Source: Deltaproteobacteria bacterium
Lineage (GTDB): Bacteria > Desulfobacterota > Syntrophorhabdia > Syntrophorhabdales > Syntrophorhabdaceae
Assembly: GCA_022711595.1 (NCBI GenBank)
Contig: JAKLET010000027.1
Coordinates: forward strand, 1 to 52,133
DNA length: 52,133 nt
Direction: 5' to 3'
The position numbers and the translations under genes were made by a program. The notes beneath the pieces are model-generated. The model was not told where the DNA came from. It did not search any database and was given only the letters and a program-made list of their open reading frames with translations. Positions within the stretch are counted from its first letter, which is position 1. The number at the start of each line of letters is the position of its first letter. Shown in pieces: positions 25,380 to 43,920 of this stretch.

Positions 25380-25407
25380 TTGACACCAAACATAAGTTTG
25401 GTATAAT
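25380..25407 (+). promoter_or_regulatory. Consensus promoter with embedded palindromic operator (dinB operon)
   Basis: TTGACA (25380-25385) and TATAAT (25402-25407), both perfect, 16 bp apart. The spacer is filled by a perfect inverted repeat ACCAAAC-ATAA-GTTTGGT (25385-25402). Its CAAAC-N4-GTTTG core resembles Gram-positive type LexA boxes (GAAC-N4-GTTC). Position and downstream dinB make it a candidate SOS operator. Confidence 0.75.
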
Positions 25408-25412
25408 AAGGC

Positions 25413-25667
25413 ATGGTGACAAAGGTAGGGGAAAGAATAAGGGTGGGGGCCGTGTTCCGGGAAGAGGGGGACAAGGTCGAACCCAGGTGGTTCAAGTGGA
25501 AGGGACGGAAATTGCCGGTGCAGAAGGTCACGTACCGGTGGTGCGAGAGGGACGGAAAAGACATGGTCCACCGTTTCGTCGTTACCGACGGGAGTGACCT
25601 CTACGAGCTTTCATACCGGCAGGGGCGGCTCATGTGGTTCCTCGAGGCAGTGGAGACCGATGGATAA
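25413..25667 (+). CDS. Small DinB-associated protein of unknown function
   Basis: An 84-residue basic protein with no cysteine pair, signal or membrane helix. The pattern PRWFKWKGRKLPVQKV...W...LYELSY...WFLEAV resembles small beta-rich proteins encoded beside DinB or ImuB-type polymerases (DUF6504-like); I am not certain of the family. The ATG lies only 5 bp past the -10, so the mRNA would start at or inside this codon. The GTG at 25443 has an AGGGGA ribosome site 10 nt upstream and would give a 74-residue protein starting just before the conserved-looking part. The stop overlaps the dinB start by 8 nt, so dinB translation is coupled to this gene. Confidence 0.7.
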   Translation: MVTKVGERIRVGAVFREEGDKVEPRWFKWKGRKLPVQKVTYRWCERDGKDMVHRFVVTDGSDLYELSYRQGRLMWFLEAVETDG

Positions 25668-26874
25668 GACCGTTCTCTACATTGACATGGATGCCTACTT
25701 CGCCTCTGTGGAGCAGGCATCGAGACCACATCTGAAAGGCAAGCCCATAGCGGTAGCGGGCAGCGGCAAGAGGACCGTCATCGTCGCCTCTTCATACGAA
25801 GCAAAGCGTTTCGGGATAAGAACAGGTATGACAAAAGGAGAGGCCCTTGCCATTCTCCCGTCCCTTGTCATCGTGGAGGGGAGGAACAGCAAATACGTTG
25901 ACACCTGCGCCCGCGTTCACGAGATCCTTCTCAGGTATACCCCGGATGTGGTGATCCATTCCATCGACGAATTTTACATGGACATCACCCGTTGTCTCGA
26001 CCTTTTTCCGTCTCCCGTCGCCGTAGCCCGCGAGATCAAGAAAGAGATCGCCCGGCGTTTTTCCATCACCTGTTCCGTGGGGGTGGGAACGACAAGGCTC
26101 ATCGCGAAGATGGCCGGCGAGAGCGGCAAGCCCGACGGCCTTGTGGCTGTGAAAAAAAAGGATGTTCCTGGATTTCTCGAGGACCTTCCCGTGGAGGACA
26201 TCCCAGGTATCGGCAGGAAGATGAAGCTGGCCCTCAATGTCCTCGGCATCACGACCTGCGGCGGACTTTCCAGGTACCCGGTTAGTGTTCTGCGAAGGAG
26301 GTTCGGTATATGGGGTGATTACCTGTCCCTTATCTCACGGGGCCTCGAACCTTTTCCAGCCGGCGGCGGCGGCGCCCCCCGTTCCATCGGCCACAGCATG
26401 ACATATGAGAAGAACATCGGCGATAAGGCGATGATCACGGCGAGGATCCTTGAGCTTGCCGAGATGGTGGCGGCGAGGTTGCGGCGTGAGAAAATGACCG
26501 CGAAGGGCATCTGCCTGATCTGGAGGTACCCCGATTTCACCACCTGCGCGAAACGTGTCACCATAAGGTTTTTCACACAGGACGGCAGGGTGATCTACGA
26601 TGCCGCGGCAGGGCTCATGGATTCCGTGAGGCTCAAAGATGCCGTCAGGCTCCTCGGTGTCACCGTCTATAACCTGAGGCCTGTCTCGCCCGCGGCGCCG
26701 CTCATCGACGGGTTCGACAGGGCGCAGCGCCTGTGGGGGGCCATGGACCGCATCAACGATACCTTCGGAGAATATACCATCCACCGGGCCACGATCCTCA
26801 TGTGTGCGAAGCACCACTGGGTCATCTCGCCGGCGTTCAAGCCCCACAAGTCTTATCCCTATAGAAAAGAATGA
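25660..26874 (+). CDS. dinB: DNA polymerase IV (Y-family translesion polymerase)
   Basis: A 404-residue Y-family polymerase. The start MDKTVLYIDMDAYFASVEQ has the first metal Asp and the aromatic steric gate. YEAKRFGIRTGM follows, then the catalytic HSIDEFYMD with Asp-Glu. The helix-hairpin-helix region VEDIPGIGRKMKLALNVLGI and a little-finger domain complete it. It copies past damaged bases with low fidelity. The ATG at 25660 is chosen over the in-frame ATG at 25594 because the conserved N terminus starts here. It overlaps the small upstream gene by 8 nt. An embedded palindrome in the operon promoter suggests damage control. No clear clamp-binding QLxLF tail is seen at the C terminus. Confidence 0.95.
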   Translation: MDKTVLYIDMDAYFASVEQASRPHLKGKPIAVAGSGKRTVIVASSYEAKRFGIRTGMTKGEALAILPSLVIVEGRNSKYVDTCARVHEILLRYTPDVVIHSIDEFYMDITRCLDLFPSPVAVAREIKKEIARRFSITCSVGVGTTRLIAKMAGESGKPDGLVAVKKKDVPGFLEDLPVEDIPGIGRKMKLALNVLGITTCGGLSRYPVSVLRRRFGIWGDYLSLISRGLEPFPAGGGGAPRSIGHSMTYEKNIGDKAMITARILELAEMVAARLRREKMTAKGICLIWRYPDFTTCAKRVTIRFFTQDGRVIYDAAAGLMDSVRLKDAVRLLGVTVYNLRPVSPAAPLIDGFDRAQRLWGAMDRINDTFGEYTIHRATILMCAKHHWVISPAFKPHKSYPYRKE

Positions 26875-43854: not shown

Positions 43855-43920
43855 GAAAAGGTCTTCTGTATATTTATTTTATCATCAAAACACCTGTTTT
43901 GATTAAGACCTTTTTTCATG
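43852..43920 (-). promoter_or_regulatory. Nested inverted repeat covering the start codon of the PocR kinase
   Basis: On the minus strand, CATGAAAAAAGGTCTT (43905-43920) is complementary, with a 2-nt bulge, to AAGACCTTTTCATG (43852-43865), whose ATG is the kinase start codon. Between the arms lies a 20-bp palindrome ATCAAAACA-CC-TGTTTTGAT (43884-43903, plus-strand reading). It could fold in mRNA and hide the start, or be a protein-binding operator. Confidence 0.65.

Follow-up and report, generated by a model that had tools for sequence, protein, structure and literature searches.

The promoter of the dinB operon in a 52,133-nucleotide stretch of DNA from a deltaproteobacterium of the family Syntrophorhabdaceae (contig JAKLET010000027.1, hereafter the window) holds an 18-bp palindrome that is a real conserved element. 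We put the probability at roughly 0.7 that this palindrome is a repressor operator within the promoter, with a class-A LexA as its most likely binder, release upon DNA damage and a single operon under its control. A bound dimer would cover the spacer between the −35 and −10 hexamers of a near-perfect promoter, and would keep RNA polymerase off an operon that encodes an ImuB-C-like protein and DinB. The most likely repressor would be the class-A LexA of the same genome. DNA damage would lead to RecA filaments and these to LexA self-cleavage, the operator would empty, and a strong, probably leaderless transcript would give the genome's only Y-family polymerase together with a small protein rich in beta structure.

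The −35 hexamer TTGACA (25380–25385, forward strand) and the −10 hexamer TATAAT (25402–25407, forward strand) are both exact consensus and are separated by 16 bp (25386–25401); the promoter is assigned by this consensus match. The putative operator, ACCAAAC-ATAA-GTTTGGT (25385–25402, forward strand), fills the spacer, and the last A of the −35 and the first T of the −10 are common to palindrome and hexamers. An earlier reading of the DNA, made from the sequence only, had called this a perfect promoter with a palindrome that touches both hexamers. Both descriptions are correct, and the sharing of one base with each hexamer goes slightly beyond touching. The exact-consensus promoter is rare: the window has one, and 60 dinucleotide shuffles averaged 0.017. 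The palindrome by itself, leaving conservation aside, is unremarkable and not rare, as nine perfect 7-N4-7 palindromes occur in the window and the same 60 shuffles averaged 3.55 (sd 2.01). It rises above chance because it is conserved in relatives. A further perfect palindrome in the window, at 43885–43902, is AT-rich (TCAAAACACCTGTTTTGA).

The first gene behind the promoter (25413–25667, forward strand) encodes a DUF6504-like protein of 84 amino acids, whose match to Pfam PF20114 is weak and under the cut-off (E = 3.9e-4; 21.1 of 24.2 bits). The protein is 65–71% identical to seven orthologues from codon 1 on, and its AlphaFold model, which is of low confidence (mean pLDDT 64.7), is all beta. 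It is probably a standalone ImuB-C, an assignment made from size, gene order and fold type and not from a direct comparison to ImuB-C. The protein is unlikely to be a DNA-binding regulator, given that its relatives stand behind different palindromes and that the low-confidence model is all beta. The second gene, dinB (25660–26874, forward strand), overlaps the end of the first by eight bases and encodes a Y-family polymerase of 404 amino acids, with matches to Pfam IMS (2.8e-46) and IMS_C (9.2e-23) and, above cut-off, to NCBIfam PRK02406. PF00817 has a single match per genome, the operon polymerase, in the window's genome and nine relatives alike. By this profile the ten genomes that have the box yielded no second Y-family gene and no imuB, one of the genes before which the sequence-only reading had advised looking for the motif. 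The C-terminal tail of the polymerase (MDRINDTFGEYTIHRATI) resembles, by eye, the RecA N-terminal motif of mutasome polymerases as a passage of PMC6511836 describes it.

The small gene starts at 25413, five nucleotides past TATAAT, and therefore the mRNA of the dinB operon is probably leaderless, with its 5′ end at or beside the ATG given the usual start point. In the window's operon as in its seven orthologues (listed as L020, L021 and L027–L032), the start codon comes 5–6 nucleotides past a perfect TATAAT. Sixteen other loci were checked, and in eight of them a start codon likewise follows a perfect TATAAT, upstream of the polymerase gene, at a distance of 5–11 nucleotides. The short distances in the window's operon and its relatives suggest leaderless mRNAs.

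Ten genomes are known to us to have the box. Eight were obtained by polymerase orthology, independently of the box, and two (G060 and G061) via the box itself, behind which they have the same operon; seven of the ten belong to one genus. The polymerase search covered 60 genomes and gave matches in 48, with an orthologue of 63–100% identity in eight, the window's included, and next best matches at or below 48%. In all eight, ACCAAAC-N4-GTTTGGT is followed by TATAAT, and the small gene starts 5–6 bases further on. No box precedes the polymerase in the other 22 loci read (the contig-edge loci L026 and L033 were left out). The arms and TATAAT are unchanged in 10 of 10 genomes. TTGACA is present in eight of nine aligned genomes and in G060, and G018 has TTTACA; the centre of the palindrome appears as ATAA, ATAT, GTAT or AAAT. 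When four genera are compared, with one genome each and no gaps, the hexamers and arms are 100% identical and the central N4 71%, and the 40 bp before the −35 are 28% identical; at 24–28%, the DNA just upstream of the promoter is unrelated between genera. Fixed arms and hexamers with a variable N4 are the trace that a protein bound to a promoter as a dimer would be expected to leave. The sequence-only reading had staked its proposal on the spacer being kept before dinB in relatives, and the palindrome is indeed conserved there.

The palindrome had also been thought to define a variant LexA motif for the lineage. This did not hold up: the exact 16-mer occurs in ten of 39 family genomes, once each and only at the polymerase operon, and in none of the other 29. 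The count alone is unenriched, because a reversed-pattern control gives 11 matches against 10 in the same 39 genomes, and it is the placement that matters. The window's genome has fewer sites within three mismatches of the 18-mer (46) than of the reversed control (79); the six two-mismatch sites other than the dinB site were read in context, and none precedes a repair gene (the frame at L043 enters masked bases). Eight genomes together have two one-mismatch 16-mers, one inside a long gene frame of the window's genome (L042) and one intergenic in G019, 49 bases before a frame that is presumably a glycosyltransferase. A looser box, RAACRWWYGTTY, is in clear excess in the window's genome, with 22 sites against 10 in the reversed control. 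Among the relatives G036 has 15 against 14, and the other six genomes show no excess (6–11 against 7–23). The looser-box sites that were read, 41 in 40 stretches, are all 22 of the window's genome and 19 hand-chosen in relatives, among the matches listed; none stands before a recognizable repair gene, and most are inside long frames.

The lexA and recA genes were where the motif had been expected to recur. In the window's genome there is no site within three mismatches near lexA (contig C56) or recA (contig C19). In eight genomes the 16-mer with at most one mismatch is never found on the lexA or recA contigs, with lexA undetected in G015 and recA in G036. Nor was a box seen in the regions read upstream of six further lexA and six further recA loci, where a gap precedes some of the lexA genes. 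The genes that precede lexA are taken by us to encode an HNH nuclease, a HIT protein and a nucleosidase, and the one before recA is presumably thpR. Some lineages reportedly have no recA box, to go by a title of Jara et al. Across phyla, recA and lexA are named as core LexA targets in a passage of PMC8565304. A lineage-wide CAAAC-N4-GTTTG regulon is rejected, there being no excess over the reversed control for the 16-mer or for sites within three mismatches, and no second SOS target having been found among the sites read.

The candidate repressor of the window's genome, L005 (contig C56, 26416–27003), matches NCBIfam lexA TIGR00498 above cut-off and, by this match, is a canonical LexA. Class-A LexA proteins (57–60% identity, E below 1e-70) are present in nine of the ten box genomes and in none of the 29 other family genomes, where the best LexA is 41% identical to L005. 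All nine class-A LexA proteins retain the self-cleavage residues A-G, S and K. The Fisher p value for co-occurrence of box and class-A LexA is 4.7e-8, a figure that ignores kinship in a set where one genus makes up seven of the ten genomes. Of the 12 genomes of the window's genus, some of them incomplete, only the window's has the box or a class-A LexA. G015, which is 96% complete in 290 contigs, has the box, and no LexA match was found in it. It should be pointed out that the correlation may reflect shared inheritance, because the polymerase type itself co-occurs with class-A LexA.

Other LexA classes of the family have palindromes of their own. Class-B lexA loci show TATAC-N4-GTATA at the start in seven of seven cases, and class-C loci show TAG(A/T)AC-N4-GT(A/T)CT, anywhere in the locus, in nine of nine; AC-N4-GT is common to these two and the window box. 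The four sister loci read through have lexA, then a small gene, then dinB. The four small proteins are 38–41% identical to that of the window, and none gave a Pfam match, DUF6504 included, at 0.001. At L186 an inverted repeat with 18-bp arms (beginning CAAACAGGGAAAAATTTG) lies directly before the start of a class-C lexA.

The GTDB collection (84,980 species, one genome each) was scanned for the box joined to TATAAT, and 29 stretches matched, with a rough chance expectation of 7–8. Seven of these precede a small gene and dinB, in records named Deltaproteobacteria, delta proteobacterium, Syntrophorhabdus or Syntrophorhabdaceae. Among the 22 other matches, L089 and L096 alone were checked against Pfam. 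In Bacilli MAGs the window-type box with TATAAT precedes a RecX protein in one case and a UvrD-type helicase in one; L106 we take to be radical-SAM-like. At L085 and L095, in Firmicutes, box and TATAAT lie a short way upstream of two similar proteins (459 and 449 amino acids), possibly from mobile-element genes. Seven Firmicutes genomes with the window-type box were hand-picked from the 22; six have a LexA above cut-off, and in two of these six MAG loci the exact CAAAC-N4-GTTTG is upstream of lexA. An overall likeness of class-A LexA to that of Firmicutes is not upheld, as its DNA-binding domain is 38% identical to Firmicutes LexA and 39% to class B. In helix 3, on our reading, class-A LexA presumably resembles B. 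subtilis LexA.

The palindrome had been put forward as a strong SOS-operator candidate, and as a putative operator it keeps that standing: it is conserved in relatives, and its layout is that of the LexA-linked palindromes of sister genomes and Firmicutes. Binding of class-A LexA, repression and damage induction at the palindrome are what we infer and not what we observe, because no box was seen at lexA or recA, looser searches found no second SOS target, and the class-A DNA-binding domain is no closer to Firmicutes LexA than to class B.

Perhaps a different, dedicated repressor gates the operon, either an S24 peptidase, for example of the L006 type, or a TetR/MarR-like protein whose gene lies elsewhere. 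We consider this unlikely, while giving it some weight. One site per genome would suit a regulator of a single operon, G015 retains the box with no LexA detected, and a passage of PMC13148647 describes a phage-derived repressor that controls dinB homologs in some Francisella species. However, neither immediate operon neighbour in the window resembles a DNA-binding regulator, and the layout of the palindrome together with its gene context points to LexA. L006 is a second, divergent LexA-like S24 protein (window's genome, contig C1, 22733–23290); none of the other nine box genomes yielded a protein of its type, and it has a different palindrome, TATAC-TTGT-GTATA, just before its own start.

It appears very improbable that the palindrome owes its conservation to a role in the promoter or in DNA structure, with no specific repressor involved. 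It is contiguous with a near-invariant −35 and an invariant −10, which would fit such a role, but the middle four bases vary between constant arms, as in a site bound by a dimer, and an invariant sequence is not what one expects of a promoter spacer. In addition, the palindrome stops at the −10 and should be absent from the RNA; a role at the RNA level was set aside for this reason. An operator of the MerR type, placed in the spacer, was likewise set aside; promoters of that type have longer spacers, of 19–20 bp. That a chance palindrome was kept merely through recent common ancestry can hardly be entertained: seven-base palindromes are not unusual, the window having 9 where 3.55 would be expected, but upstream DNA between genera is at random identity, and therefore ancestry alone does not keep the block.

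The LexA operator that we favour has both likenesses to and differences from known systems. Passages of PMC4551915 and PMC9578287 give the B. subtilis LexA box as CGAAC-N4-GTTCG. This LexA/DinR box and the window site CAAAC-N4-GTTTG have in common the AAC-N4-GTT core and the 4-bp centre. In the window site A/T replaces G/C at the second and second-last positions, in all ten genomes; the site is also extended to ACC...GGT, and is found at one operon only and not at lexA or recA. The closeness to boxes of the GAAC-N4-GTTC type that had been noted from the sequence extends to the AAC-N4-GTT layout, whereas the site departs from CGAAC-N4-GTTCG in all ten genomes.

The lexA-imuB-C-polY operon of Geobacter is damage-induced, as stated in section 17 of PMC6511836. 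The G. sulfurreducens operon (GeoPolY-like), described in the same part of that paper, has a small ImuB-C gene directly before the Y-family polymerase, as the window operon probably does. The window operon differs in having no lexA, while the four sister loci have lexA in front. The motif reported for Geobacter in a passage of PMC8565304, GGTT-N10-AACC, is different from the window operator. Minimal S24-controlled regulons, those of HdiR and UmuDAb, likewise have a self-cleaving repressor mainly over error-prone polymerases, as outlined in that paper (PMC8565304); the candidate repressor here is instead a canonical LexA (TIGR00498), apparently with just one operon. Deinococcus has lexA-imuY-imuB-C-dnaE2 cassettes, as mentioned in PMC8072749. 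A search of openly licensed full texts found none on a LexA-binding motif with Deltaproteobacteria and dinB, none on LexA with Syntrophorhabd or on DUF6504, and none linking LexA with CAAACATATGTTTG.

The SOS interpretation of the sequence-only reading thus survives in part. What remains is a conserved SOS-type operator in front of a translesion polymerase, accompanied by one LexA class; what falls is the lineage motif. Judging from the genomes compared, the palindrome is most likely a LexA operator at one operon, a variant within the known SOS theme and not a lineage-wide LexA motif. LexA in the box clade appears to control the polymerase operon alone, with no such site found at lexA or recA. 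LexA motifs are varied, and motif change has been linked to lexA duplication and loss, according to a passage of PMC8565304. A tentative scenario, to which we give somewhat less than even odds, is that among these uncultured Syntrophorhabdaceae SOS has shrunk to one operon, under a canonical LexA that does not control itself and has a private CCAAAC-N4-GTTTGG box; this box would have replaced the TATAC-N4-GTATA of sister genomes once the operon, having lost the lexA it contained, came under another LexA.

Sister genera of one family have related polymerase operons with different LexA classes and different palindromes at the same spacing. The Syntrophorhabdaceae genera are therefore a compact natural experiment on the joint change of a repressor and its operator. 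Should LexA indeed bind the palindrome of the window, this would be a LexA whose detected targets have dwindled to one, the translesion polymerase, in a response that leaves out recA and lexA.
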